DNA from: an uncultured Azospirillum sp.
GTDB taxonomy: Bacteria > Pseudomonadota > Alphaproteobacteria > RF32 > CAG-239
Length of the DNA: 64,000 nucleotides
Reading direction: 5' to 3'
Assembly: GCA_947301965.1 (NCBI GenBank)
Contig: CAMYUM010000006.1
Location: 1-64,000, forward strand
The position numbers were made by a program, and so were the translations under genes. Under the pieces are notes generated by a model, which searched no databases, was not told the origin of the DNA, and saw nothing but the letters and a program-made list of their open reading frames with translations. Positions 8,454 to 42,102 of this stretch are shown here, in pieces. The first letter of the stretch is position 1. Each line of letters starts with the position of its first letter.

Positions 8454-9357
8454 TTTCTTTTTTGATGGTTTTGCGCAATAACTTGCTACTGTGACCTATA
8501 TCCGGAACAATAACCAATTTTGATTTTGGTAACTTTTTGTGCAAATCATACGCCGCTTTGAGCGGGCAAACCATATCAAGACGATTGTGCACAATCAAAG
8601 TCGGAATGTGCTTAATTATGTCTGTGTTTTGAAGTATGCAGTTATCCTCAAGCATAAAATTTTGTGCACAATAATTAATGTAAATCATGTTGGAACTTAT
8701 ATCATCCTGGGTGATTTTTCGGTTTACGAATTCTGGGGATAATTGTCCGAGCAACCGTTCATAGTTGCCGTAAGTGCTGATAGCCTTGATCTGCTGCCCG
8801 AGATTGTATGAGTTCATCATTTTGGCAAAACGTTGTGCCAAATTAAGTTTTTTGTTTTTGGGAGCCGAGGCTTCAAGTTTTTCGAGCATATCGGGATAGA
8901 AAAGACCATTGCCTTCTTCCATCCATTTTTTATTGTCAGAATCGGCAAGAAATATTTGACTGAGCAGCAGCTTTTCAACCGTATTGGGATTACGCATCGC
9001 AAATAACAAAGCGAGAGTTGAACCCCACGAACCGCCACGCACAATCAAAGGCTTTTTAATATTAAGATATTTAATCAGCCTTTCGGCATCTTCCAAAGCT
9101 GCAATCGAATCGTTGTTTTCCATCTCGCCGGCAGGCATAGACTTGCCGCAACCGCGTTGATCAAACATGATTACACGATATTTTTTGCGGTCAAATGCCG
9201 CGGCTCTGTACGCTTTTGAACAGCTGCCGGGACCACCGTGAAAAATAAGCACGGGCTTTCCGTCCGGATTGCCGAGTTCCATAAAATAGATACGATGACC
9301 TTCTTTTTCCGGCAGATACCCGGAATTAAAAACTCGAGGGGTGAATAAGTTAAACAT
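8434..9357 (-). CDS. pip: Proline iminopeptidase-like alpha/beta hydrolase
   Basis: A 307-residue S33-family peptidase that should release N-terminal proline from peptides. It shows the oxyanion motif FHGGPGSCSKAY, FDQRGCGKSMPAG, the nucleophile elbow VRGGSWGSTLALLFA (Ser), an Asp in HNRLDMVCPL and a final His in PDIGHSS. Cytoplasmic: no signal peptide. The match to proline iminopeptidase rests on the GGSWGSTLAL signature; other S33 aminopeptidases share it. It is tail-to-tail with msrB with a 20 bp overlap. Confidence 0.82.
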   Translation of the reverse strand: MFNLFTPRVFNSGYLPEKEGHRIYFMELGNPDGKPVLIFHGGPGSCSKAYRAAAFDRKKYRVIMFDQRGCGKSMPAGEMENNDSIAALEDAERLIKYLNIKKPLIVRGGSWGSTLALLFAMRNPNTVEKLLLSQIFLADSDNKKWMEEGNGLFYPDMLEKLEASAPKNKKLNLAQRFAKMMNSYNLGQQIKAISTYGNYERLLGQLSPEFVNRKITQDDISSNMIYINYCAQNFMLEDNCILQNTDIIKHIPTLIVHNRLDMVCPLKAAYDLHKKLPKSKLVIVPDIGHSSKLLRKTIKKEITRFLG

Positions 9358-9426
9358 TTTTTACCCTTTTATTTATTTGTAAATATAATGCAGTATAGAT
9401 CATAATTATGAAAAAGGAAGAACAAA

Positions 9427-10224
9427 ATGCGGATGGTAATAAATTCTGATTTTGACAAATGCTCTAATTGGGCTGCGGATTACGTGGCTTATAAGATAAA
9501 GGCAGCCAAACCTACAAAAGAAAAACCTTTTGTTATGGCTCTGCCGGCGGGTAGTTCTCCCCTCGGAATGTTTAAACGTTTAATTGATATATTCAAAAGA
9601 GGAAAAATTTCTTTCCAAAATGTTGTGTTCTTCAATATGTGCGAATATGTCGGTTTATCCAAAAACGATAAACACAGTTTTAATTATTTTTTATGGGATA
9701 AATTTTTTAATCATATCGATATAAAAAAGAAAAATATTCACCTTATGGACGGCGAAACCAAAGACTTTGCCAAAGAATGTAATGATTATGAAAAACTAAT
9801 TCGCAGCTACGGCGGCATAGATCTTTTGATTGCCGGTGTCGGCGAAGACGGGCATATCGCATTTAATGAGCCGGGGTCGTCACTGGCTTCGCGTACCAGA
9901 CTCAAGGCTCTTACCCGTGATACTATACGTACAAATGCAAAATATTTTGACAATAATGAGGATAATGTACCAAAGTTGGCAATCACTATCGGTATTGCAA
10001 CAATTATGGATGCACGCGAGGTAATGGTAATTGCCGCCGGAGATAAAAAAGCCGAGGCGTTGCAGGGAGCAGTTGAAGGCAGTGTTAATCATATGTGTCC
10101 GTTGAGTATTTTACAGATGCATCCTCACGCTATAATTGCCTGCGATGAAGAAGCCACTTCAAAGCTGAAAGCCAGTACCGTTCGTTATTTTAATGATAAT
10201 GAGGAATCAAAATACGGAAGATAA
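9427..10224 (+). CDS. nagB: Glucosamine-6-phosphate deaminase homologue with Asp72 replaced by Cys
   Basis: A 265-residue protein collinear with NagB, which converts glucosamine-6-phosphate to fructose-6-phosphate and ammonia. It has GVGEDGHIAFNEPGSSLASR with Asp141, His143 and Glu148 at the same numbers as in E. coli, and AVEGSVNHMCPLSI. The expected NMDEYVGL is NMCEYVGL: the codon for residue 72, the proton-abstracting Asp of the family, is TGC. The sugar-phosphate loop is also unusual (PAGSSPLGMF where NagB has a TGGTP-type loop). The start has AAGGAAG upstream. There is no nagA beside it; lpxA follows after about 100 bp. Activity as a deaminase is therefore uncertain. Confidence 0.85.
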   Translation: MRMVINSDFDKCSNWAADYVAYKIKAAKPTKEKPFVMALPAGSSPLGMFKRLIDIFKRGKISFQNVVFFNMCEYVGLSKNDKHSFNYFLWDKFFNHIDIKKKNIHLMDGETKDFAKECNDYEKLIRSYGGIDLLIAGVGEDGHIAFNEPGSSLASRTRLKALTRDTIRTNAKYFDNNEDNVPKLAITIGIATIMDAREVMVIAAGDKKAEALQGAVEGSVNHMCPLSILQMHPHAIIACDEEATSKLKASTVRYFNDNEESKYGR

Positions 10225-27621: not shown

Positions 27622-29256
27622 TTATTTATCCTCTATTGACAACACTGGAATAACACTAAACAACAACCATTTTTTCGTTTCCTTATCTGTTCTCGTTTTG
27701 TGATTTCTTCGCAGAAATTGCTGTAGTTGTCTCCGGTATTTTATCTTGCTAAATACACCAAAATTTTTATATTTAGATACTGGATTTTTCGTGTAGGCTT
27801 CATAATAAGCCTTTTTAATATCTTTATCAACTAGCGTTTGACGTATCAAATCAATAACCATTTGACATATTTTTATGTAATCGGAAAAATGTTTACTCCA
27901 ATTGTTTGTTATCTGCTTCGAGTGTATCCTTCTGAAATATAGAGTTTCTTTGCAAATTCCACAACGTTCAGCAGAAAGTAATGCGTGTGGAAAAAAAACA
28001 TTATCTTCAAAGAACAAATGTGGTGGAAATGTTATATTATTATCTTGCAGAAACTGTCGTCTATAACAGGTAAGACAAGAAGATATTGCCATCCTTGTAA
28101 TAAAACTTTTACATTGTTTATAAGAAAAACATCGAAACTTAAAGTTTTTCGGCAGATATTCAAATTGATAATATGCATTATATTCCTCTTGGCCAGTAGT
28201 ATCATTAACATTAACACCACCATACGATAACATGTCTAAATTATCTAACCTTAAATTGGCATACAGAATATCTAATGTATCTTCTTTAATCCAATCATCC
28301 GCATCTAAAAAGAACACATATGTACCTTTGGCTATCTGCATTGCATTGTTTCGTGAACAAGATAAACCTTGATTTTTTTGGTCTATAATTTTAATGCGCT
28401 TATCTTTTTTAGAATATTCTTTCAAAATCTCAAGTGAGCCATCTGTCGAACCATCATTAACACAAATAATTTCAATATCCTTTAATGTCTGGTTGATAAC
28501 GCTGTCTAAACATTTGGACAGGTATTTTTTGCCGTTATAACAAGCTATTACAATGCTAAATTTTAAAACATCATCTGAAAGGTAGTGACGATCTAAAACA
28601 GAAACTTTTTCTATAATGTGTTTGTTATTATTTCGCCAATCATCACTAATTCCACCTCTGTAAAAATTTGCAATCAAAAAATTTAAATATTTAAAACAAC
28701 AATTTTCTTTACAAAATACAATAAATTTTTCCCAGTCACTTGCAAAACGATAATGTTCATCATACATACCATATTTATCAAATAAACAACGTCTAATAAA
28801 AGAAGCTTGGTGACAAATTGTATTATTTTGAAAATATTTAATGTCAAGTTGGTCTGTATATTTCCGTATCACAGAGGCTCCATCCAGTTCTTTAATTCGA
28901 ACATTGCCATATAGTACATCTGCATTATATTTCCTACCTACAAACACTTTTTCTAAAACATCATTTGCCGCAAAACAATCTCCACCATTCATAAAATTGA
29001 GCCATTCCCCTGTAGCACGCTTAATACCTTTATTCATGGCATTATAAACGCCATTGTCTTTTTCTGAAATAAATATATTAATTCGATTTTTATATTTTTC
29101 TAGAACATCAAGCGTACCATCAGTCGACCCTCCGTCTACTACAATCCATTCAAAACCTTGCCAGCTTTGGTTGATGATACTTTCACATGTACGTTCAATT
29201 TCATCTTTTATATTATAGTATATAGTAATAATGCTCAGTGTGGGAGTGTTTTTCAT
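27622..29256 (-). CDS. Two-domain GT2 glycosyltransferase
   Basis: 544 residues with two consecutive GT-A glycosyltransferase family 2 domains. The first (1-225) starts TPTLSIITIYYNIKDEI and has WIVVDGGSTDGT, a WcaA-like type. The second (232-470) starts FSIVIACYNGKKYLSKCLDS and has CVNDGSTDGS with the metal-binding FFLDADDWI. The protein ends KKWLLFSVIPVLSIEDK, a tail shared with the two upstream glycosyltransferases of different fold. It should add two sugars, or one sugar twice, to a surface glycan. The ATG is at 29256 with GAGGAG upstream, beginning four bases after the preceding stop. Confidence 0.9.
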   Translation of the reverse strand: MKNTPTLSIITIYYNIKDEIERTCESIINQSWQGFEWIVVDGGSTDGTLDVLEKYKNRINIFISEKDNGVYNAMNKGIKRATGEWLNFMNGGDCFAANDVLEKVFVGRKYNADVLYGNVRIKELDGASVIRKYTDQLDIKYFQNNTICHQASFIRRCLFDKYGMYDEHYRFASDWEKFIVFCKENCCFKYLNFLIANFYRGGISDDWRNNNKHIIEKVSVLDRHYLSDDVLKFSIVIACYNGKKYLSKCLDSVINQTLKDIEIICVNDGSTDGSLEILKEYSKKDKRIKIIDQKNQGLSCSRNNAMQIAKGTYVFFLDADDWIKEDTLDILYANLRLDNLDMLSYGGVNVNDTTGQEEYNAYYQFEYLPKNFKFRCFSYKQCKSFITRMAISSCLTCYRRQFLQDNNITFPPHLFFEDNVFFPHALLSAERCGICKETLYFRRIHSKQITNNWSKHFSDYIKICQMVIDLIRQTLVDKDIKKAYYEAYTKNPVSKYKNFGVFSKIKYRRQLQQFLRRNHKTRTDKETKKWLLFSVIPVLSIEDK

Positions 29257-29260
29257 TATC

Positions 29261-30178
29261 TCATTTCTCCTCAATACTTAAAAGTGGTATAAAGCTAAAT
29301 AAAAAATATTTCTGGATTTTCTTTTGAATTATTTTGCGTGACATGTTTATTTGAAATTTATTTTCATAAATTTGAAAAACTAAATCCTTGTTCAAAACAA
29401 CCTTTTTGGGGTGCAAAAGCTTAAAAATCTGTTTTGTTTTTTTATTTAAGTCTCTGTTTCTGCCATTATAGTGTACACCTTCCTCTCCAATATTTGAAAT
29501 CAAACAATGTGCCGGATTAATACATAAACCATCATGTGCTACTATATTAAATGTCCATGGGTATGCCCAAGAATCTATTTCGCCACGTTGTAATTTCTCT
29601 AAAATTTTTCCCCAATATGCCTGCACATTAATGTCATCAGAGAATTTTGCTAATTCTTTCTTGCCGTATTTTGATAAATCTAATGAAAAATATTGCCACC
29701 TGTCAGACCAACTAGCCCAACCCCAGCAATGTTCTATTTTAGCAAAATAATAACTTTCTTTTATATTTGCATCAATCGGTGCATCACCGGCAATGTGCCA
29801 TACACGTTTGTCTTCACGATATTTATTTAACAAATTTTCACAAAATGAGAAAAATGTTAAATCAGGCACACAGTCATCTTCTAAAATAATACCTTCTGGT
29901 TCGTTGGCAAAAAACCACGATACAGCACTTGAAACTCCATACTTGCAACCACCAGAATTTACTTTTAGAAAACGTGTTTTTACATCGCATGGCCAGTTTA
30001 TATGGCTCAAAAGATATTGACGTACTTCTTCTATTTTTTCTTTCTCCCCGTCTTTTTCTGGGCGCGGACCATCAGAAGCAATATATAATCTAGGAGGTTT
30101 TGCTTTAGCAATCATTGCAAAGACGTCTTTTAAATAGTCAAGACGATTAAATGTTAACAATAAGACTGCTGTCTTCAT
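29261..30178 (-). CDS. Glycosyltransferase, HlpA/GNT-I-like GT-A type
   Basis: A 305-residue GT-A enzyme beginning AVLLLTFNRLDYLKDVFAMI, with IASDGPRPEKDGE, the metal-binding IILEDDCVPDLTFF near residue 97, and the acceptor-side CWGWASWSDRWQYF. This pattern matches the glycosyltransferases often annotated hemolytic protein HlpA-like or N-acetylglucosaminyltransferase-like. Donor and acceptor are unknown. The C-terminus QKYFLFSFIPLLSIEEK is a variant of the tail on its neighbours. The ATG directly abuts the GT8 stop codon, with GAGGAC upstream. Confidence 0.85.
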   Translation of the reverse strand: MKTAVLLLTFNRLDYLKDVFAMIAKAKPPRLYIASDGPRPEKDGEKEKIEEVRQYLLSHINWPCDVKTRFLKVNSGGCKYGVSSAVSWFFANEPEGIILEDDCVPDLTFFSFCENLLNKYREDKRVWHIAGDAPIDANIKESYYFAKIEHCWGWASWSDRWQYFSLDLSKYGKKELAKFSDDINVQAYWGKILEKLQRGEIDSWAYPWTFNIVAHDGLCINPAHCLISNIGEEGVHYNGRNRDLNKKTKQIFKLLHPKKVVLNKDLVFQIYENKFQINMSRKIIQKKIQKYFLFSFIPLLSIEEK

Positions 30179-31081
30179 TTATTTGTCCTCTATACTTAAG
30201 ATTGGTAAAATTCCTAACAACTTGTATTTTTTTAATTGGGCGGAAGATACTAAATAAGCGGAAAATTTTTGTTTTACTAGTTTGGCAAACTTTGTTTGTT
30301 GTAAAATCTCATCAAAATCCTCTGATCTTATGCTTTGGGTTTTCCAAGGTTTCTTACCTGTATAGTGTATAACCAATGGTTTTACTTCGCCTCGTTCAGG
30401 ATGTTTTTTCTTCAACATTTCAGAATGATCTGGCATAAAGTTGTAGCGATAATCTAATATCTTGAATTTTCCATCAAATAAAATATTAAAGACATCTTGG
30501 TCAGGACAGCTTAATTTATCAAATAATTGGATAGTTAGTTCTATTAGCTTTTCCTGATATTTATTTTTAATAAACTTTTGAATATCCAAAAGCATTACAC
30601 CGGCATTAAAATATTGATCCCCCCCTCTGTATTTAGGCCATATTTTTTCTTTCAGTGTTGTATAGTTCCCGACATAAAAATCTTCTAACACGGCTCCTAC
30701 CGCATATTTACCTAGATCTTCACTATATAATTCAGCAATATCGCCCTTAATTATTACATCAACATCAATATATATTACTTTACCAAGATTAGGGGCTATT
30801 TCCGGTATAAAATAGCGTGAAAACGTATTTAAGGAATAGTGTTTTAAATTTGGAAACCTGTTTAATCCAAATTTTGACATATCAATGTACCTGATATTTT
30901 TATGCTTAAATTTCTTTAAGCTCTGCATAATAAGTTTTTTGTTTTTTTTGCTTATTCCTCCGTCCATCACATAAAAATCTATGTTTGACTTTGTATGCAT
31001 CAGCATGGAATACATTGTGGTGCATAAAAAAGGTGCATAATTATCATCACATGCTAAAAATACGGGGATTGAAGAGTGCAT
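30179..31081 (-). CDS. GT8 family glycosyltransferase
   Basis: 300 residues of the LgtC/RfaJ type (retaining glucosyl- or galactosyltransferases of LPS and capsules). It starts IPVFLACDDNYAPFLCTTMYS, with the DxD metal motif VIYIDVDVII near residue 105, YFNAGVMLLDI, and the family-typical C-terminal motif VIHYTGKKPWK. It ends KKYKLLGILPILSIEDK, the shared tail. The start has AAAGGG upstream. It is the second gene of a minus-strand operon that begins with the 68-residue motif protein. Confidence 0.9.
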   Translation of the reverse strand: MHSSIPVFLACDDNYAPFLCTTMYSMLMHTKSNIDFYVMDGGISKKNKKLIMQSLKKFKHKNIRYIDMSKFGLNRFPNLKHYSLNTFSRYFIPEIAPNLGKVIYIDVDVIIKGDIAELYSEDLGKYAVGAVLEDFYVGNYTTLKEKIWPKYRGGDQYFNAGVMLLDIQKFIKNKYQEKLIELTIQLFDKLSCPDQDVFNILFDGKFKILDYRYNFMPDHSEMLKKKHPERGEVKPLVIHYTGKKPWKTQSIRSEDFDEILQQTKFAKLVKQKFSAYLVSSAQLKKYKLLGILPILSIEDK

Positions 31082-31093
31082 CAGAGTATCCCT

Positions 31094-31300
31094 TTACATC
31101 AACTTCTTACTTACTTTCATTATGGGGATACCAAGAAAATAATATTTAGTAGTGTTTCCATTGGCCTTTTTGCAACACTTTAAAACAGGAACGCCAAGAA
31201 TTCTCCATGTTTTTTTATCTTTTTTTTCTTTCCAACCATATATTGGCAAAAGTGCAAATAATTTGACTGTTCGTGAATGTATCATAGCCTTTTGTCCCAT
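31094..31300 (-). CDS. 68-residue protein built from three copies of the glycosyltransferase tail motif
   Basis: A small basic protein with no recognised domain. It is almost entirely three units of a module that elsewhere in the window sits at the ends of glycosyltransferases: VKLFALLPIYGWKEKKDK, KTWRILGVPVLKCCKK and TKYYFLGIPIMKVSKK. Each unit is aromatic/basic, then hydrophobic with Gly-Ile/Val-Pro, then basic. AGAAGATAAA precedes the ATG, a weak ribosome binding site. It is 12 bp upstream of the GT8 gene on the same strand, first in the operon. It may be a scaffold or membrane-docking peptide; it could also be the remnant of a larger enzyme. Confidence 0.65.
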   Translation of the reverse strand: MGQKAMIHSRTVKLFALLPIYGWKEKKDKKTWRILGVPVLKCCKKANGNTTKYYFLGIPIMKVSKKLM

Positions 31301-31420
31301 TTTATCTTCTAATATAATGTTTTAGAATGTTTTATCAATAAATACCAGAAAAAGCAATATTTTTTTTTGCATAAAAGAATATACACACAAATCAATTGAA
31401 ACATGCCTTTGCATAAGTGT

Positions 31421-31458
31421 ATTTAATCCTTGCATACATAATATTTACGTTATAGTAT
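31421..31458 (+). promoter_or_regulatory. Promoter region of the fused GT2/glycerophosphotransferase operon (copy 1)
   Basis: The block beginning ATTTAATCCTTGCATACA is repeated at 36853 with 35 of 38 positions identical. It includes TTGCAT and TATAGT spaced 15 bases, a possible sigma-70-type pair with a short spacer. It lies 50 bp before the gene start. Conservation of just this block before two GT2 genes supports a promoter. Confidence 0.6.
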
Positions 31459-31507
31459 CAGTGCAAAATGTTAGCTATTAATGTTGTTTTATTGAGATAG
31501 AGGATAG

Positions 31508-34186
31508 ATGATGCCTAAGGTTTCCGTAATTGTACCTGTATATAATGTCGAACAATATTTGAGGCAGTGTTTGGATAGCCTGGTTAATCAAACACTGAAT
31601 GATATCGAGATTGTCTGCATAAACGATGGCTCAACAGATGGCTCACTTGAGATTTTGAAAGAATATTCTAAAAAAGATAGTAGAATCATATTCATTGACA
31701 AAAAAAATGAAGGAGTTTCAGCGGCAAGAAATAAGGGATTGGATATTGCTAAGGGCGAATATGTTGTTTTTTGTGATGGTGATGATTATTATGAACCATC
31801 GTATTGCACAGAAATGTACGATGCAATTACCACAAATAAAGATGTTGACTTAGTTTTATGTGATATAACGGCAAAACACGAAGAAGGTGACAAGCGCGAT
31901 CCCGCAAGATACCGGCATCCTCCATATGTGGGCAAATTAAAGTTAAACGGCTATCTTAAAGCACATATAGGAAGCGTATGGCATATAATGTGTTGTATTT
32001 TTAATAAAGAAGTTATTGACAAATATAAATTAAAATTTCCAAAAGTGAGAACTGCAGAAGACACAGCATTCCTCTGTTGTTATTTAGCAGTAATAAAAAA
32101 TGCATATGGTCTAAAAAAGGCATTATATACATATAGATTAGTGCCAAATTCAACAATGGCTAATGCGTATATATCATCAGATTGTTCTTCTGAAAATCCG
32201 CTTATGGATATGATAATTGCATATAAGTATATTTCAGATTTCCTCAAAATAGAGAATAATTTGAAAAAGAATTGGATATTCGACTTGTTAGAAAGGCGTT
32301 TTTGGGTATTAGATAGGTTTAACATAAGACAAAAAAACATATATTTAGAAAATTTAAATAAAATGCTATTATCCGAAATAGATGCTAGTAGTTTGGAGGC
32401 ATACAGACAATTATATCTTTGTAAACAGCATAACTTTCCCAAACTTTATGAACTAAGAAAAAAAATTGTGCTAGGGAAAGACAAGAAGATAAGTATACTT
32501 GGAATCACCATATATCGAAAAAAAGTAAAAGCAAACAAAAAGAAGTATTATATCTTTGGAATTCGTTATTTAACAAAGAAAATAGAACAAAATATAAAAA
32601 AATATTATTTATTTGGCGTTTTAGTATATAAAAAACGTAATTCAAAAGTTAAACAAAATTCTGAAGCTTGGCCCATATTAGTGGAAAATAGGCATAAAGA
32701 ATTAACTCATTCATTAAATTATACAATATGTTTTGATAGCTTAAGAAACATCTATGTTGATAAAGACAACGCTTGGTTCTTCTTCCAATATTTACAATCT
32801 CAAAATATTCCATCAAAGTTCATTACACTTGATCCAAACTTAAAAGGACAAGATATTGTTTATGTGTCTAGCGAAGATGACTTTTTATTATCACATGTTG
32901 ATTTAATTGCAAATAGCCAAAACGTAGTAACATCTTATGGTCTTTCTGTTGAAAATGGTAGACTTCTTAAATCTCTGACTTGGTTAAAATACATTTTTAT
33001 TGAGCATGGCGTATGTTTATTTAAAAAAGGCTACTTATATAAGCCTGATAGATTTGATGCTATTGTTGCTGCCACCAAGTTAACAAAAGATTTTTATATA
33101 GAGAGAAATGTATGGCCAGAAGCTAGGATTATTCCATGCGGTTTATCTAGATGGGATATGTTAAGAGGCAACAAACAAAAAGAAAATACAATATTTGTAT
33201 TTTTTACATATCGTAGATCTGCTGAAACTAATGAAGAACAATTTGTAAAATATGAAAATTCTATCAAAAAGATTCTACTGCAATTAAAGAAAATATGTGC
33301 CGGTACTAAAATTGTCTGTTGTTTTCATCACAACTTAGCAGGAACCATAACATTTTCGGATTTTGGTGATGATATTACAATAATTTCGGAAAATGATATT
33401 CCATATTGGAAAACTCATGCTTCGATGTGTCTGACCGATTATTCATCAATGGCGTTTGAATTTATGTATCAGGATAAACCAGTAATTTTTTATCGATTTG
33501 ACTATTTTGACTCAACTCTTATACAATATGATCAAACAAATGCATATTCTGCAGCACAAGAAGATGATAAGCTTTATAATGTTTTTTATGATGAAAAATC
33601 CGCAATGGATAAAATTGAATATTATGTTAAGCACAATTTCGAATTAGAGGAAAGATATAAAAAAATTAATAAAACTATTTTTTGGGAACAAGAAAATTGT
33701 TGTTCAGACTTATATAGATTTATATGCAATTTTGATAAGGAATCTCAAAAACCTGAAAAATATTATATAGTTTCAGGAGGTTTTGATCCCATCCATGAAG
33801 GGCATATTGAAATGATAAAAGCCTCGGTGGCTGTATCAGATGGCGTAATTGTGTTAGTCAATTCTGACGAATGGCTTTGTCGAAAGAAAGGTAAAAATTT
33901 CCATACCATAAAGACGCGAAAAGCTATTTTAGAAAATCTAAAGGGCGTAATAGATGTCTTAGAATTTGATGATTCTGATAACTCAGCATGTGATGGGATT
34001 AGAAAAGTTAGAGCTAAATACCCAAATGCGCATTTAGTTTTTGCTAATGGTGGGGATAGAAAAAAAGATAATATACCTGAAGTTTCTGTCTGCGAAGAAT
34101 GTAATGTTGATTTGGCTTTTGGTGTCGGGGGGACAGGTAAAACAAATTCATCTTCATGGATATTAGAAAAATGGAATAAACAGTAA
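31508..34186 (+). CDS. Trifunctional fusion: GT2 glycosyltransferase, CDP-glycerol glycerophosphotransferase, cytidylyltransferase
   Basis: 892 residues. Residues 1-230 form a GT2 domain (VSVIVPVYNVEQYLRQCLDS, CINDGSTDGS, FCDGDDYY). Residues 321-380 hold three tandem basic/aromatic modules (KKISILGITIYRKK, KKKYYIFGIRYLTKK, IKKYYLFGVLVYKK). Residues 400-745 match the TagB/TagF-type glycerophosphotransferase (FIEHGVCLFKKGYL, CFHHNLAG, LTDYSSMAFEFMYQDKPVIF). Residues 752-892 are a nucleotidyltransferase with GGFDPIHEGH and ANGGDRKKDNIPE, near the RfaE2/TagD-like group. Inference: it activates a polyol phosphate with CTP, transfers it and adds sugar. Start ATG ATG follows GAGG; 31511 is equally likely. 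First gene of a plus-strand operon. Confidence 0.9.
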   Translation: MMPKVSVIVPVYNVEQYLRQCLDSLVNQTLNDIEIVCINDGSTDGSLEILKEYSKKDSRIIFIDKKNEGVSAARNKGLDIAKGEYVVFCDGDDYYEPSYCTEMYDAITTNKDVDLVLCDITAKHEEGDKRDPARYRHPPYVGKLKLNGYLKAHIGSVWHIMCCIFNKEVIDKYKLKFPKVRTAEDTAFLCCYLAVIKNAYGLKKALYTYRLVPNSTMANAYISSDCSSENPLMDMIIAYKYISDFLKIENNLKKNWIFDLLERRFWVLDRFNIRQKNIYLENLNKMLLSEIDASSLEAYRQLYLCKQHNFPKLYELRKKIVLGKDKKISILGITIYRKKVKANKKKYYIFGIRYLTKKIEQNIKKYYLFGVLVYKKRNSKVKQNSEAWPILVENRHKELTHSLNYTICFDSLRNIYVDKDNAWFFFQYLQSQNIPSKFITLDPNLKGQDIVYVSSEDDFLLSHVDLIANSQNVVTSYGLSVENGRLLKSLTWLKYIFIEHGVCLFKKGYLYKPDRFDAIVAATKLTKDFYIERNVWPEARIIPCGLSRWDMLRGNKQKENTIFVFFTYRRSAETNEEQFVKYENSIKKILLQLKKICAGTKIVCCFHHNLAGTITFSDFGDDITIISENDIPYWKTHASMCLTDYSSMAFEFMYQDKPVIFYRFDYFDSTLIQYDQTNAYSAAQEDDKLYNVFYDEKSAMDKIEYYVKHNFELEERYKKINKTIFWEQENCCSDLYRFICNFDKESQKPEKYYIVSGGFDPIHEGHIEMIKASVAVSDGVIVLVNSDEWLCRKKGKNFHTIKTRKAILENLKGVIDVLEFDDSDNSACDGIRKVRAKYPNAHLVFANGGDRKKDNIPEVSVCEECNVDLAFGVGGTGKTNSSSWILEKWNKQ

Positions 34187-34228
34187 GATAGTATTGTTGT
34201 TGGATATCTGTTGTAGTGAGCTGAGGGT

Positions 34229-35671
34229 ATGCTATTTAATTCATTGACATTTATACTATTATTTTTGCCAGTAGTGGTAATTATATACTATTACTTGATA
34301 GCAAAAAGAATCATAGTGGGAGCTCGAGTGTGGCTAGTCGGAGCGTCTCTGTTTTTTTATGCTTTTTGGAATGTTTATTATTTGCCATTAATTCTGATAT
34401 CAATTGCAATGAATTTTACATTAGGTTCAACAATTTCTTCGAAAGATGTACGTTTAAATAAACGTACATTATTAATCTGGGGCATTATATTGAATGTTTG
34501 TGCTCTAGGATATTTTAAATATACAGATTTTATGATTTCCAACATCAATTGGATTTTTCATATTGAAATTCCATTGCAACATATTGTATTACCATTAGCA
34601 ATATCGTTCTTTACGTTTCAGCAAATAGCTTATCTTGTTGATTGTTATAAAGGGATAACTAAAGAATATGATATTTTGCAATATGCTTTGTTTGTATCTT
34701 TCTTTCCTCAGCTTATTGCAGGTCCGATTGTTGCTCATTACGAGATGATGCCACAGTTTGTTAGAACTTCGAATTTGGTAAAAAATTATCACAATATTTT
34801 GCTTGGAATTTTAATCTTTGTTATCGGTTTATTTAAGAAAATTGTTATCGCTGATACGTGTGCCAAGTATGCTACAATAGGCTTTGACCAACTGCCTAAT
34901 TTGACATTTTGGGGAGGATGGTTTACTTCACTTTCATACACTGCACAAATTTATTTTGATTTCAGTGGTTATTGTGACATGGCCATAGGTTGCGCCCTAC
35001 TGTTTAATATCAAACTACCAATTAACTTTAATAGTCCATACAAAGCATTGAATATTCAAGATTTTTGGCGACGTTGGCATATTACATTATCACGTTTTCT
35101 GCGAGATTATCTTTATATTCCGTTGGGCGGAAATCGCAAGGGTGAAATGCGCACTTGTGCCAATGTATTTACCGTATTTTTAATTGGCGGATTGTGGCAT
35201 GGCGCCGCTTGGACTTTTGTAATTTGGGGTATGTTACATGGTGTGGCAAATATAGTATTTCGTTTGTGGTCAAAAGTTGGGTTCACACTCAATAAATTTG
35301 TAGCTTGGTTACTCACATTAAATTTTATCAACCTGAGCTGGGTATTTTTCCGCGCTAATAGTTTTGATTCCGCCTTAAAAGTTATAAAGGCAATGTTTGA
35401 CGTTTCGTCGTTTACAAACAAACCCTGGTGGCGTATGAAATATTATTTAACAGATTTTGGTGTGCGGTCAAACGCTTTCTATGCTCTTGTTATATTGATT
35501 ATTCTATGTACCATATTGCCTAATTCTGTGCAGATCTTACAAAAGTTATCACTTATCAGAAACAAGAGAATTATTATCTCGTTTTCGTTAATATTAGCTT
35601 TAATCTCATTTGCTCTGCTGATAAAAATGATAGTGATTCCGTACAGCGAGTTTATTTACTTCAATTTTTAG
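34229..35671 (+). CDS. MBOAT family O-acyltransferase (AlgI/DltB-like)
   Basis: A 480-residue polytopic membrane protein that should move acyl groups across the inner membrane to a surface polymer. Signatures: SFFPQLIAGPIVAHYEMMPQ, YFDFSGYCDMAIG, NIQDFWRRWHITLSRFLRDY, YIPLGGNRKG, and GGLWHGAAWTFVIWGMLHG with the catalytic His. About ten to eleven membrane spans. It is followed 10 bp later by an SGNH-like partner, as in algI-algJ/X and dltB-dltD pairs. O-acetylation of the island's polymer is the likely role. Confidence 0.93.
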   Translation: MLFNSLTFILLFLPVVVIIYYYLIAKRIIVGARVWLVGASLFFYAFWNVYYLPLILISIAMNFTLGSTISSKDVRLNKRTLLIWGIILNVCALGYFKYTDFMISNINWIFHIEIPLQHIVLPLAISFFTFQQIAYLVDCYKGITKEYDILQYALFVSFFPQLIAGPIVAHYEMMPQFVRTSNLVKNYHNILLGILIFVIGLFKKIVIADTCAKYATIGFDQLPNLTFWGGWFTSLSYTAQIYFDFSGYCDMAIGCALLFNIKLPINFNSPYKALNIQDFWRRWHITLSRFLRDYLYIPLGGNRKGEMRTCANVFTVFLIGGLWHGAAWTFVIWGMLHGVANIVFRLWSKVGFTLNKFVAWLLTLNFINLSWVFFRANSFDSALKVIKAMFDVSSFTNKPWWRMKYYLTDFGVRSNAFYALVILIILCTILPNSVQILQKLSLIRNKRIIISFSLILALISFALLIKMIVIPYSEFIYFNF

Positions 35672-35681
35672 GGGAAGTATA

Positions 35682-36752
35682 TTGTATAAATCTGCGATTA
35701 AAACATATCTGATAACATTATTGGTACTGATAGCCGGTTTTTATGCCATAATTTTCGTTTCTGATCCGTATATGTTGTTCCATAAGCATTGGTTTCATCA
35801 AAACAAAATGTATAATAATATGCGTATCCAAAATTACGGACTGATAAAATTCGGCAAATTTGATGGGATAATCATCGGAACATCAATGCTTGAAAATACA
35901 TCCGCAGATGAAGCAACAAAAAAATTTAATAATGTACGGTTTGCCAATCTGTCTGTTTCCGGAGGAAGCTACTACGAACGTTTTAAAATTTTGAATATGG
36001 CTCTAAAAACTAAAAAAATCAAACATGTAATTATGTCTTTTGATTATAACTTTTCTCGTTCTGGAAAAATCAACACGACTTTTGAACCTTCACTATATTC
36101 TTGGAATTCTATCATTGGAAAAGCAAAAATTTATTCTACGAATAAAGCACTGAGGTGTATATTCCTCAACAAACAATGTGATTTTATTAAATTTGATATT
36201 AATCATCCAAAAGCATGGTATGCAAAAAAAATACATAATCGACGCTTTGGTGGATTTGATAATTGGATTAAATTTTGTAAAGATGATCAAATTAAAGATG
36301 CTTTTGAACAATTAAAATCAGAAAACAATGATTACAGTGTTATGATGGCGTATTACAAAGAAGTGATTAACAAGGAAATTATACCTCTATTACAGCATGA
36401 AAAAACGACATTTTCAATCATTATTCCACCGTACAGTATGCTTTGGTGGGGGAAGCGTAAAGCTTCTCTATCCGAGCTGTTTGAACCATACGTGTATTTA
36501 ATTCAGAAAACCGCCGCTTATAAAAATGTCAAGATTTATTGGTTTTATGATGAAAATTATGTGTCTGATATCACAAAATACAAGGATTTAACACACTATC
36601 ATCATTCCATAAACTCGTTACAACTTGATGCAATAAAAAATGGTACCAACATAATCAACTCAAATAATTACCAAGAAAAGTTTACATCATTCAGAGATAA
36701 AATTAATAATTTTGATATACAATCTTACATTGATAAAATTACAAACTTCTAA
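35682..36752 (+). CDS. SGNH/AlgX-like partner of the MBOAT acyltransferase
   Basis: 356 residues with one N-terminal membrane anchor (YLITLLVLIAGFYAIIFV) and an extracytoplasmic domain. GIIIGTSMLENTSADEA resembles the GDS block of SGNH hydrolases, with Ser in GTSM. The far motif YKDLTHYHHSINSLQLDAI supplies an Asp-x-x-His as in the third block. The position after MBOAT fits the second component of polymer O-acetylation, like AlgJ/AlgX or DltD. The start is TTG with AGGGGAAG upstream. The family assignment rests on motifs and position. Confidence 0.75.
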   Translation: MYKSAIKTYLITLLVLIAGFYAIIFVSDPYMLFHKHWFHQNKMYNNMRIQNYGLIKFGKFDGIIIGTSMLENTSADEATKKFNNVRFANLSVSGGSYYERFKILNMALKTKKIKHVIMSFDYNFSRSGKINTTFEPSLYSWNSIIGKAKIYSTNKALRCIFLNKQCDFIKFDINHPKAWYAKKIHNRRFGGFDNWIKFCKDDQIKDAFEQLKSENNDYSVMMAYYKEVINKEIIPLLQHEKTTFSIIIPPYSMLWWGKRKASLSELFEPYVYLIQKTAAYKNVKIYWFYDENYVSDITKYKDLTHYHHSINSLQLDAIKNGTNIINSNNYQEKFTSFRDKINNFDIQSYIDKITNF

Positions 36753-36852
36753 TTTACATATAGTCTTTATATGAAACACCAGCATTTTACTAATAGAAAA
36801 TCATAAAAAAATATGCGTACAGATTAGCTGTTATACGCTTTTTGACGGTTTT

Positions 36853-36890
36853 ATTTAATCCTTGCATACATAATATTTTTGCTATAGTAT
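36853..36890 (+). promoter_or_regulatory. Promoter region, second copy, upstream of GT2/tagD operon
   Basis: 35 of 38 positions match 31421-31458; the first 26 bases are identical. TTGCAT and TATAGT are spaced 15 bases. The GT2 ATG follows 33 bases downstream. The 171 bp gap after the SGNH gene holds nothing else I can name. Confidence 0.6.
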
Positions 36891-36923
36891 TTGTTGCATG
36901 GTGTTGTTTTGTGGTGAGATGTT

Positions 36924-37997
36924 ATGAAGCCTAAAGTTTCGGTAATTGTGCCTGTCTACAATGTTAAAGCGTATTTGTCTCAGTGTTTGGATAGCTTGGT
37001 TAATCAGACGCTAAAAGATATAGAAATCGTATGCGTGGATGATGCTTCGACCGATGGCTCGCTACGAGTATTAGAAGAATATTCTAAAAAAGACAATCGA
37101 TTAGTTGTAATAACACAACAAATAAATCGCGGTGTCGGCGTTGCGAGAAATGTGGCTCTTGAGGCGGCTAGCGGCGATTATATTATGTTTTGCGATCCAG
37201 ATGACTGGTATGAACTCAATGCTTGCGAAGTTGCATATAATCAAATAGTAAAAAATAAAAATGATGTGGTTGTCTTTAACTTTAGGCAATATAGCGAGAA
37301 AAACAAAAATTACAGAGACTGCGATTGGAGAATTTTGCCGTTTAGAAGGCAATTTAATAATCCCAATATTATACTGAGCGATGTGCCAAATTATATGCAG
37401 GCACCATATGCATGGGCGCAAATATATTCAAGAAAATATATAAATAAAAACAATATCAGATTTGCAGATCAAAGACTTTGCGAAGATGTAATATTCTACG
37501 TAAAGGCGATGGTGAGTGCAAATAATATATCTGTAATAACAGATCCTTTGTATGTTTATAGGGCAAGAGAAGGCTCTATCTCACATAACTATAATATTTA
37601 TTGGGCTGATTTGTTTAAGGCAAGATATGACTGTCTAGCATTTTTGGAACAACAACACGATAAGAAATGTGTATACCCATTCCTGATATATTCATTCAAT
37701 ACGCTATCTAACTGGTATAACTTAATCAATAAAAAGAAACCCAAAATAGCAAAAGATTTCTATGCTGAAATTAAAAAATATTACCAGCTGTTGGTGGCAA
37801 AATATGATATCAGCTCTATAGCTCAATATATCAATAATTATGATGAAATTATGTTTATATGCAATAATTCGTGGAAACAAAAAATAATAAAAGACTTCTT
37901 CAGAGCGCTTTTTTATATAAGAGTGACAAATGACCGCAAAATCATAAGTGTGTTGGGCATAAAAATTAAGATGAAATTGCAAAAAATAACAGATTAG
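36924..37997 (+). CDS. GT2 family glycosyltransferase
   Basis: 357 residues, with its GT2 domain clearly paralogous to the N-terminus of the 892-residue fusion (KVSVIVPVYNVKAYLSQCLDS against its VSVIVPVYNVEQYLRQCLDS). It has CVDDASTDGS and MFCDPDDWYE, and FADQRLCEDVIFYVKAM as the catalytic-base region. The C-terminus RKIISVLGIKIKMKLQK is one more copy of the short module. Acceptor and donor are unknown. GGTGAG lies upstream of the ATG. The gene is AT-rich like the rest of the island and starts a three-gene operon with tagD and a glycerophosphotransferase. Confidence 0.9.
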   Translation: MKPKVSVIVPVYNVKAYLSQCLDSLVNQTLKDIEIVCVDDASTDGSLRVLEEYSKKDNRLVVITQQINRGVGVARNVALEAASGDYIMFCDPDDWYELNACEVAYNQIVKNKNDVVVFNFRQYSEKNKNYRDCDWRILPFRRQFNNPNIILSDVPNYMQAPYAWAQIYSRKYINKNNIRFADQRLCEDVIFYVKAMVSANNISVITDPLYVYRAREGSISHNYNIYWADLFKARYDCLAFLEQQHDKKCVYPFLIYSFNTLSNWYNLINKKKPKIAKDFYAEIKKYYQLLVAKYDISSIAQYINNYDEIMFICNNSWKQKIIKDFFRALFYIRVTNDRKIISVLGIKIKMKLQKITD

Positions 37998-38008
37998 AGG
38001 ACTAAATA

Positions 38009-38398
38009 ATGAAACGGGTAATTACATACGGAACATTTGATGTATTGCACTACGGCCATATAAATCTCCTTAAACGAGCAAGGGCGTTGGGAGATTATCT
38101 TATTGTGGTACTATCAACCGATGAGTTTAATAAAGTTAAAAATAAGCAATCATTTTATACGTACGAACAGCGGAAAATGATTTTGGAAGCGTGTCGTTAT
38201 GTAGATTTGGTGGTGCCAGAATATAATTGGGAACAGAAGATTGACGATGTAAAAAAATATCAGGCAGATATCTTTGTTATGGGTGATGACTGGAAAGGTA
38301 AATTCGACTTTTTGAAGGATTACTGCGAGGTTGTATATCTGCCACGAACCCCTGATGTTTGTTCGACTAAAACTAAAGAATATTTAAGAAAAAAATAG
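38009..38398 (+). CDS. tagD: Glycerol-3-phosphate cytidylyltransferase
   Basis: A 129-residue TagD/GCT-type enzyme making CDP-glycerol from CTP and sn-glycerol-3-phosphate. Signatures: TYGTFDVLHYGHINLLKRA with the HxGH nucleotide motif, FYTYEQRKMILEACRYVD, FVMGDDWKGKFD, and LPRTPDVCSTKTKEYL, where the STTKIK-type motif appears as STKTK. The length is exactly that of the family. GAGGAC precedes the ATG. CDP-glycerol synthesis implies a glycerol-phosphate-containing polymer. Confidence 0.92.
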   Translation: MKRVITYGTFDVLHYGHINLLKRARALGDYLIVVLSTDEFNKVKNKQSFYTYEQRKMILEACRYVDLVVPEYNWEQKIDDVKKYQADIFVMGDDWKGKFDFLKDYCEVVYLPRTPDVCSTKTKEYLRKK

Positions 38399-38409
38399 CA
38401 AGAGGTTCT

Positions 38410-39801
38410 ATGACTATAGCAGACATTGTTACTACACATATTGGCGATTTAACCATTACTAAATATAGATTATTTGGTTATACATTGCTCTGTCATACAA
38501 AAGATATCAAAAAACAAGAAATTAAAATATTTTGTTTCAAACTAAAATTTAAGCATTCAAATAGAGCCAAAAATGTTATTAATAAAGACGCTTTGGCTGA
38601 TGAATATCAGAACGCCATCTTAAAAATTCGCCAAAAGATTAATAATGGCAATAAAGTCAGAGTTATCTTTCTGGTAAATATGGCAAGTATGTTCCCTGCC
38701 GAAAATCTGATGAGAGAAATGCTTAAAGACAATATATTTGATGTTAAACTCTATATTATCCCCGATATAAGGTTTGGTAAAAAAGACATGGTTACCAGTA
38801 TAGAGGCAACTTATTATGAATTATCCAAGAAATATGACTTTGCAAAGATGGCTGTCAAATTTGATAGAAATAGAGAAATATCCGAGTGGGATGATGTAGT
38901 AAATAATGCAGATATAGTTTGTTACCCGTCGCCATATGATTTATCGTACTCACCTTATAATCCGTATTATGCTGCGAAAAATGGAATTTTATCGATACAT
39001 ATCGATTATGGTTTCCTGCGTTCTAAATATGACAGACTGATTTATCAAAGCGATAACTATAATAACTTTTGGAAAGTGTTTATAGAAACCGAATTAAACC
39101 GTGAAGAATATTATAATTATGGTCAATGCAAAGCTTCAAACGCCATCGTTACCGGATATGCCAAAATGGATAGTCTGGCACAGTATAAACACATAAATAC
39201 TAGCAAAAAAACTATTATTATTGCTCCTCATCACAGCGTAGAAGGGGGTACAAATCATATATTAGCGTTATCTAATTTTGAAGCATATGCTGACTTATTC
39301 TTAAAAATTCCTGAAATGTATCCTGATATTGATTTTGTTTTTCGCCCTCACCCGGTACTGTTCAAAATTTTAAGACGGAAAAAACACTGGGGAGATAAAC
39401 GTGTTGAAGAATATTTGAACAAAATGACATCTCTAAGAAATGTTACTTATAGTACTGCTGGAGATTATTTAGAAATTTTTGCTAAATCTGATGGTATAAT
39501 ACAAGATTGTGGCTCATATTTGGTAGAGTACTTCTATACGAAAAAGCCTTGCTGTTATATGCTTAAATCTCCGTCAGATATTGAAAATAAATTCTCAGGG
39601 CTCGGAAAACAATGCCTTGATAATTGTTACATTGCATACAATCAAGAAGACATTCTGGATTTCTTGAACAATGTGATTGTAAAAGGTATTGATCCTAAAA
39701 AACGAGAACGTGAGCAATTTGCCGAAGAACAAGTAATGATTAATTATCCTCATGCGTCTGCTAAGATAATTAGCGAGATTAAAAACATAGTGCTGAAATA
39801 A
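38410..39801 (+). CDS. CDP-glycerol glycerophosphotransferase-like protein
   Basis: 463 residues. The C-terminal 300 show the glycerophosphotransferase/capsule-polymerase pattern: IIAPHHSVEGG, DFVFRPHPVLFKIL, and DGIIQDCGSYLVEYFYTKKP, which corresponds to the TDYSS...EF...KP motif of TagF. The N-terminal 50 residues carry two copies of the island's module (ITKYRLFGYTLLCHTK and IKIFCFKLKFKH). It probably adds glycerol phosphate from CDP-glycerol made by the adjacent TagD-like enzyme. AGAGG precedes the ATG. Last gene of the island; it ends 8 bp before the convergent mazG-like gene. Confidence 0.85.
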   Translation: MTIADIVTTHIGDLTITKYRLFGYTLLCHTKDIKKQEIKIFCFKLKFKHSNRAKNVINKDALADEYQNAILKIRQKINNGNKVRVIFLVNMASMFPAENLMREMLKDNIFDVKLYIIPDIRFGKKDMVTSIEATYYELSKKYDFAKMAVKFDRNREISEWDDVVNNADIVCYPSPYDLSYSPYNPYYAAKNGILSIHIDYGFLRSKYDRLIYQSDNYNNFWKVFIETELNREEYYNYGQCKASNAIVTGYAKMDSLAQYKHINTSKKTIIIAPHHSVEGGTNHILALSNFEAYADLFLKIPEMYPDIDFVFRPHPVLFKILRRKKHWGDKRVEEYLNKMTSLRNVTYSTAGDYLEIFAKSDGIIQDCGSYLVEYFYTKKPCCYMLKSPSDIENKFSGLGKQCLDNCYIAYNQEDILDFLNNVIVKGIDPKKREREQFAEEQVMINYPHASAKIISEIKNIVLK

Positions 39802-39809
39802 TGTTACCG

Positions 39810-40208
39810 TTATTTCTTCTTCATGTATTCTGATGAAAAGCCATGTGGATGGCGGGCTTGAAGCTTTTCTATGTTACGGCGGATAATATCGTCAAAATCA
39901 ACGCCAAGAGCATTTGATGCATTAGCCAAGTACCAACAAATATCTCCTAATTCATCAATCATTTTTTGTCGGTTTTCTTCCGAGAGTTCTTTGCCGTGAA
40001 ACTTGAGCTTTTTCCAAAGGTCAGCACACTCCCCTGCTTCACCTGCCAAACCGGTCATAGCTGTATCCATACGTGCATAATTGCCTTTGAGCCATTTTGA
40101 CAATTCGGCAATGCGCTCATTAAAAACATCATCGTCTTTACTGGGCGTGGAAGTAACACTATCAACAAATCGGCAATATTCTTTGAAAAAATCTTTGGTT
40201 TCTGACAT
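39810..40208 (-). CDS. MazG-like nucleotide pyrophosphohydrolase
   Basis: A 132-residue all-alpha NTP pyrophosphohydrolase. The metal-binding ExxE...ExxD pattern is visible in GLAGEAGECADLWKKLK and DELGDICWYLANASNALG. The small single-domain form may clean up non-canonical nucleotides or dCTP-type substrates. It is downstream of thyA with a hairpin between, so expression may be partly separate; GGAGAG lies before the ATG. Confidence 0.85.
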   Translation of the reverse strand: MSETKDFFKEYCRFVDSVTSTPSKDDDVFNERIAELSKWLKGNYARMDTAMTGLAGEAGECADLWKKLKFHGKELSEENRQKMIDELGDICWYLANASNALGVDFDDIIRRNIEKLQARHPHGFSSEYMKKK

Positions 40209-41732: not shown

Positions 41733-41761
41733 TTGAAAAACATTATAACATGCGGTATATT
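41733..41761 (+). promoter_or_regulatory. Promoter of ssrA
   Basis: TTGAAA at 41733-41738 and TATATT at 41756-41761 are separated by 17 bases, a near-consensus sigma-70-type promoter. Transcription would start about 41768, at the beginning of the tmRNA. Confidence 0.8.
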
Positions 41762-41767
41762 GGTAGT

Positions 41768-42045
41768 GTTGAGCAATCAACTGTGACACCAGAGGCTCTG
41801 TGAAATAGAGATTTCGGACCCGAGGGCAGTACTCGGCACCTCCACCAATTCAAACTTATACGGGGGTGAAACAGGTTTGACGGGATTTAGTAAAGGCAGG
41901 TGCTGTGTTCGGTGAGATACCACCGTTATCGGTTCAAATTCAAATAGATGCTAACGATAATGAATTAGCACCAGTTGCTTTGGCTGCTTAATTGTAGTCG
42001 CAACGAACTCAAATTCTTGTAGTCTTGGTTGACAACAAGTGGGGG
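41768..42045 (+). ncRNA. ssrA: Circularly permuted two-piece tmRNA
   Basis: Rescues stalled ribosomes and tags the nascent chain. The order is permuted as in alphaproteobacteria: the acceptor piece comes first and ends in the T arm (CCGAG/CTCGG) and CACCTCCACCA at 41847. A short spacer follows, then the coding piece beginning GGGGGTGAAACAGG at 41862. GGGGGTG pairs with CACCTCC to rebuild the acceptor stem, with one G-U pair. The tag frame runs from GCT at 41950 to TAA at 41991 and reads ANDNELAPVALAA, ending in the ClpXP-type LAA. The gene lies upstream of sspB. Both outer ends are approximate; processing removes the spacer. Confidence 0.92.
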
Positions 42046-42079
42046 ATGAGCCACCCAGCAACAGAACGGCTCATTTTTA
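42046..42079 (+). terminator. Terminator of ssrA
   Basis: ATGAGCC and GGCTCAT form a 7 bp stem followed by TTTTAT, at the end of the tmRNA coding piece and 24 bases before sspB. Read-through into sspB is possible. Confidence 0.7.
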
Positions 42080-42102
42080 TGTATCGGGGGACTGAAAGTA
42101 CA

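Follow-up and report, generated by a model that had tools for sequence, protein, structure and literature searches.

A 68-residue three-module protein and a shared enzyme tag in surface-glycan operons of gut Alphaproteobacteria

The window analysed here, a 64,000-nucleotide stretch of an alphaproteobacterial genome, encodes a 68-residue protein made only of three tandem copies of a short basic module, and each enzyme of the operon that this protein heads ends in one further copy. The small protein belongs to a family that is linked to the C-terminal enzyme tag and is previously undescribed. We propose, with slightly less than even confidence, that this tail-only protein is a non-catalytic adaptor that brings the tagged enzymes together at the membrane. 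What holds the glycosyltransferases of surface-glycan synthesis, encoded by separate genes, together and in the right order is still largely an open question. If the proposal is true, a common tag and a tiny tag-only protein would make pathway assembly directly testable; the 16-residue tag would mark, by sequence alone, the enzymes of one pathway, and could serve in building enzyme assemblies.

The tail-only protein, its operon and its relatives

The gene starts with ATG and encodes MGQKAMIHSRTVKLFALLPIYGWKEKKDKKTWRILGVPVLKCCKKANGNTTKYYFLGIPIMKVSKKLM, which is made up of three similar units (TVKLFALLPIYGW, KTWRILGVPVLK, and TKYYFLGIPIMK) of the basic and aromatic type "xKYYFLGIPIMK" and contains 16 Lys/Arg against 2 Asp/Glu (Table 1). 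The thirds of the protein resemble one another more than do shuffles of its own residues (p ~0.001), a test that is not significant in each homologue when run singly. The first-pass annotation had described three tandem modules and no catalytic domain, and both statements stand: the protein has no Pfam or NCBIfam match at E<=1. A profile of 12 homologues found no sequence relative among PDB sequences, and no glycosyltransferase at E<=10. A plasmid search with a longer repeat gave no match, and a literature search for the motif letters together with glycosyltransferase returned nothing, with broader searching yielding analogies only.

Table 1. Coordinates of the tail-only gene, its modules and the module-bearing genes around it
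Feature	Position	Strand	Basis or detail
Tail-only protein, 68 aa, three modules, net charge +14	31094..31300	minus	ORF translation
Module 1, RTVKLFALLPIYGWKE, residues 10-25	31226..31273	minus	predicted strands 8-12, 21-26
Module 2, KKTWRILGVPVLKCCK, residues 29-44	31169..31216	minus	predicted strands 29-34, 37-44
Module 3, NTTKYYFLGIPIMKVS, residues 49-64	31109..31156	minus	predicted strands 50-55, 58-64
Shine-Dalgarno-like AGAAG, 5 nt before ATG of the 68-aa gene	31306..31310	minus	alignment
GT8 glycosyltransferase, 300 aa; C-terminal tag KYKLLGILPILSIEDK at 30182-30229	30179..31081	minus	Pfam, sequence
Putative glycosyltransferase, 305 aa, no Pfam match; C-terminal tag KYFLFSFIPLLSIEEK at 29264-29311	29261..30178	minus	
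Double GT2, 550 aa, last gene of the operon; C-terminal tag KWLLFSVIPVLSIEDK at 27625-27672	27622..29274	minus	
Divergent 892-aa fusion of GT2, Glyphos_transf and cytidylyltransferase; modules at residues 324-380 (32477-32647)	31508..34186	plus	
GT2, 357 aa; C-terminal module at residues 337-357	36924..37997	plus	
Transferase-like protein, 463 aa; modules near the N-terminus, residues 17-51	38410..39801	plus	

As the first-pass annotation had it, the gene begins a glycosyltransferase operon, in which the GT8 gene starts 12 nt past its stop and is followed by the 305-aa putative glycosyltransferase and the double GT2. On its other side lies a plus-strand cluster encoding the 892-aa fusion, an MBOAT protein, a GT2, a cytidylyltransferase and the 463-aa protein. 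Modules had been reported inside the fusion, at the N-terminus of the 463-aa protein and at the end of the 357-aa GT2, and are located there; the annotation was silent on the C-terminal module that each downstream gene of the operon carries. Elsewhere in the same genome, three GT2 enzymes (one on C20, two on C2) are tail-less and a further one (C13) carries three modules; the tail-less enzymes indicate that glycosyltransferases do not in general have the tail. The glycan cluster (28000-40000) has a G+C content of 29-33% against about 40-43% in its flanks, which would fit an island that is acquired or exchangeable. The window also holds, at 41755-42082, a permuted (two-piece) tmRNA with the tag ANDNELAPVALAA, as in Alphaproteobacteria.

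A family-wide profile search over 152 genomes of the same rumen and gut alphaproteobacterial family found stand-alone homologues in 11 other species (G014, G181, G188, G180, G199, G184, G186, G187, G195, G185, and G134); the named relatives are metagenome-assembled genomes of ruminant-gut Alphaproteobacteria. These homologues are 62-73 aa long, and each has a Shine-Dalgarno-like element before its ATG, the AGAAG of the window aligning with AGGAG in G014, G181 and the fused gene of G002. Their chromosomal location varies (one follows malQ and another clpX, for example), and nearly all of the genes lie 5-50 nt upstream of a glycosyltransferase, the exception being G180:C13. The G014 and G181 orthologues are separated by 27.8 synonymous and 5.2 non-synonymous differences (dN/dS 0.02, Fisher 1.8e-18). 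The ratio is 0.19 between the window and G002 and 0.07-0.45 for other pairs. The stand-alone form is thus under selection as a protein, and strong purifying selection is the outcome of the check on conservation in relatives that the first-pass annotation had proposed.

Net charge is +8 to +16 in every member of the family. The three-module profile matches 77 of the 152 genomes (E<=0.001), mostly as tails, and extends to a few other families of small-genome Alphaproteobacteria, with essentially no matches in the phylum sample searched; this distribution refers to the three-module profile, single modules being too short for such a test. In fusions the module domain is usually at or near the C-terminus and at times N-terminal or internal, and for many tailed glycosyltransferases of the family no stand-alone partner lies nearby.

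Modules also occur in other proteins free of catalytic domains. G180, G181 and G186 encode proteins of 140-166 aa in which three modules, the conserved part, are followed by a C-terminal probable coiled coil, judged by eye (L080:6364-6864, plus strand; L091:5957-6379, minus; L090:645-1082, plus; these three genomes only). The gene sits directly after a GT2 of the 630-aa class in G186 and G181. Stand-alone module proteins of 80-84 aa with a strongly acidic C-terminus are found in G014:C10 and G198:C22 (L035:8937-9179, minus; L092:520-774, plus), the G014 copy having no adjoining glycosyltransferase.

A tag shared by enzymes of unrelated folds

The tag KYKLFGFIPLLSIEEK closes all three enzymes of the window operon and enzymes of related operons. 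It is found on GT8, GT2, Stealth (Stealth_CR2) and SGNH-domain proteins, that is, on unrelated folds. Its Leu, Gly, Pro and Ser residues are encoded by freely varying codons, which indicates conservation at the amino-acid level; copying or recombination of the tag as DNA was considered and set aside on the same free variation of synonymous codons. Only the last codons are constrained otherwise: the final ATT GAG GAA AAA TAA doubles as the Shine-Dalgarno sequence of the next gene. This overlap of protein tag and translation signal is seen at 29261-29326 of the window and in L033, L075, L076 and L081, with GAG as the Glu codon in 21 of 23 cases. The IEEK/IEDK end persists even without a closely following gene, in the 550-aa gene of the window and in G002:C2:24272, which uses GAA GAA codons.

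Strong tag matches (E<=2e-8) are confined to nine of the 152 genomes, and none of the nine lacks the tail-only gene, which is fused in G002 and stand-alone in the other eight. Gene and tags lie in one cluster on one contig in eight of them; the G198 gene is divided between the ends of contigs C88 and C89. Among the remaining 143 genomes, five have a stand-alone gene, of a more divergent kind (9/9 versus 5/143, Fisher 2e-11, with a tag profile built from the very clusters later counted). Part of this co-occurrence could come from joint inheritance of operons that travel as units; the tagged operons differ in enzyme content and in chromosomal site. The view of a free-standing, conserved module protein free of catalysis is upheld by its presence in about a dozen species, a ribosome-binding site of its own, strong purifying selection, a place at the head of operons of tagged enzymes, and strict co-occurrence with the tag.

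One bearer of the glycosyltransferase tag is an SGNH-domain protein (L079:5010-5750, minus strand; KWQLFGFISLLSIEEE), which suggests that the tag marks a pathway and not an enzyme class. An enzyme-sized ORF in L086 (196-888, plus strand) and the gene that follows the small ORF in L081 begin with the tag (MKKEIRWKLFGFIPLFSIKEK), so its position can be N-terminal too.

Predicted structure and proposed role

The three modules are predicted to form one basic beta-meander domain. AlphaFold2, run on 12 stand-alone sequences, returned an all-beta meander with the strands given in Table 1 and with moderate confidence (pLDDT 70.5, pTM 0.49). The model of the G002 fusion has a GT8 fold, a 26-residue helix (333-358), a low-confidence linker and then the meander, with pLDDT about 71-85 across most of residues 373-427. 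Its separation by the linker suggests that the meander would be an autonomous domain and not part of the catalytic fold. Foldseek found no significant match in the PDB (best E 0.54). VIA-align gave Z 6.2 for the single-layer sheet of OspA and 4.2-4.6 for TarM and GtfA/B, values in the tool's range for common arrangements.

In the mechanism that we propose, translation of an exchangeable surface-glycan operon would begin with the small protein, at a ribosome-binding site of its own, and the protein would be located at the inner face of the membrane. The beta-hairpins of the enzyme tags would pair edge-to-edge with its sheet, gathering the tagged enzymes, and the sugar-transfer steps of the operon might then work on one lipid-linked glycan. 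The tail-only protein would in this way be a docking scaffold, as suggested by the first-pass annotation, whose interpretation is supported in part. Several observations support an adaptor: homologues that stand alone with a Shine-Dalgarno element in 11 other species and at varied sites, purifying selection on that form, a tag common to GT8, GT2, Stealth and SGNH proteins and conserved in amino acids, the presence of the tail-only gene in every strong-tag genome, a meander predicted both alone and as a separate domain in the fusion, and the catalysis-free proteins that join modules to a probable coiled coil. It is weakened by the G180:C13 gene, which has no neighbouring glycosyltransferase, by five divergent homologues that accompany other types of tail, by the many tailed enzymes without a partner nearby, by the partial double duty of the IEEK end as a Shine-Dalgarno sequence, and by the share of the co-occurrence that joint inheritance and the origin of the tag profile may explain. 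The wider claim, of an undescribed organising system for surface glycans in which a homotypic beta-hairpin code joins one-module tags and the three-module gatherer into one membrane-side assembly, is a possibility that we hold more doubtful than the adaptor itself.

Cellulosome dockerin and cohesin and the docking domains of polyketide synthases are short docking tags with scaffold partners. The proposed arrangement resembles such systems in that unrelated enzymes bear one short tag and a separate protein repeats the module, GT8, GT2, Stealth and SGNH proteins being so tagged in operons headed by the module protein. It differs in that tag and putative partner are of the same kind of module, and in its setting of cytoplasmic glycan synthesis. 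We know of no sequence relation between the modules and dockerin, cohesin or docking domains.

The chief rival, somewhat less likely than the adaptor, is that the modules, as beta-hairpins of basic and aromatic character, bind anionic lipid or the lipid-linked glycan, with no docking of tag to protein; tags would bring enzymes singly to the membrane, and the stand-alone protein would act alone, perhaps to sequester the lipid carrier or to present it. The positive charge of all members (+8 to +16), the tailed enzymes that have no stand-alone partner nearby and the 26-residue helix modelled before the module domain of the fused GT8 are in its favour, but lipid binding alone leaves unexplained why the IEEK-type tag is found only where the stand-alone protein occurs. 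Among comparable known systems is the C-terminal helix bundle, predicted to be amphipathic, of Hib Bcs3 (PMC10299916). Like such basic or amphipathic glycosyltransferase tails, the module is a terminal extension compatible with membrane association or protein contacts; unlike them, alpha-helical and specific to one enzyme, it is predicted to be beta, is repeated and shared between folds, and is also encoded alone.

It is improbable that the meander is a glycan- or acceptor-binding module that holds the growing glycan for the enzymes of the operon, in the way that staphylococcal SdgB holds its acceptor with the DUF1975 insert (PMC8561734). The DUF1975 beta-insert both recognises acceptor and promotes oligomers, mediating dimer, trimer or heterodimer assembly, with trimers or heterodimers in TarM and GtfA/B (PMC8561734), and the meander has a weak structural likeness to the DUF1975 regions of TarM and GtfA/B. 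However, those Z scores (4.2-4.6) are at background level and below that of OspA, no sequence similarity to DUF1975 was detected with the homologue profile against PDB sequences or with Pfam on the 68-aa protein, and the tag occurs on enzymes of different chemistry, the SGNH protein included. The likeness to DUF1975 of SdgA/SdgB, TarM and GtfA/GtfB, as a beta-stranded accessory domain of glycosyltransferases, is by analogy only: DUF1975 has ten strands and is inserted within GT-B enzymes, whereas the 68-aa protein is a stand-alone ORF, and DUF1975 is not a short terminal tag across unrelated folds.

Very little weight can be given to the idea that the ORF is a leader, translated only to set how much of the downstream glycosyltransferases is made: the gene is short, first in its operon and 5-50 nt before the next, but conservation covers the amino-acid sequence, beyond the frame, and the domain recurs within larger proteins and with coiled coils.

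Truncation and the fused form

The first-pass annotation held that the same sequence fused to a catalytic domain in a related genome would show the gene in the window to be truncated. Such a fusion exists: the closest homologue (74%), in G002 of the same genus, forms the C-terminal end of a 431-aa GT8 protein. It at first favoured a truncated gene, a reading dropped on the internal Shine-Dalgarno sequence and ATG and on the free-standing homologues. The junction DNA in G002 reads AGGAGATAAAATGGCA and aligns with the Shine-Dalgarno sequence and start of the small gene in the window and in G014, and the neighbouring reading frame stops just before the internal Shine-Dalgarno sequence, one frame from the fusion. 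Judged from this alignment, the G002 fusion is probably secondary, two genes having been joined by a small frame change, and possibly retains a usable internal start. The fusions in G186:C22 and G187:C38 have a Met at the corresponding place and no Shine-Dalgarno sequence, which marks them as true fusions. Neither the relaxed selection nor the loss of an own start signal expected of a pseudogene is seen (dN/dS 0.02-0.45, Shine-Dalgarno element conserved). That the 68-aa ORF is a functionless remnant of a glycosyltransferase, as its match to the end of the G002 protein might imply, is scarcely credible given a start signal kept even within that fusion behind a neighbouring-frame stop, free-standing copies at several sites across a dozen species, and a dN/dS as low as 0.02.

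In G014 (L033:7652-8322 and 9248-10150), a GT2 gene is broken into two parts (68 + 155 aa) and a GT8 gene has an out-of-frame start, from either assembly error or decay; the adjoining small ORF is intact.
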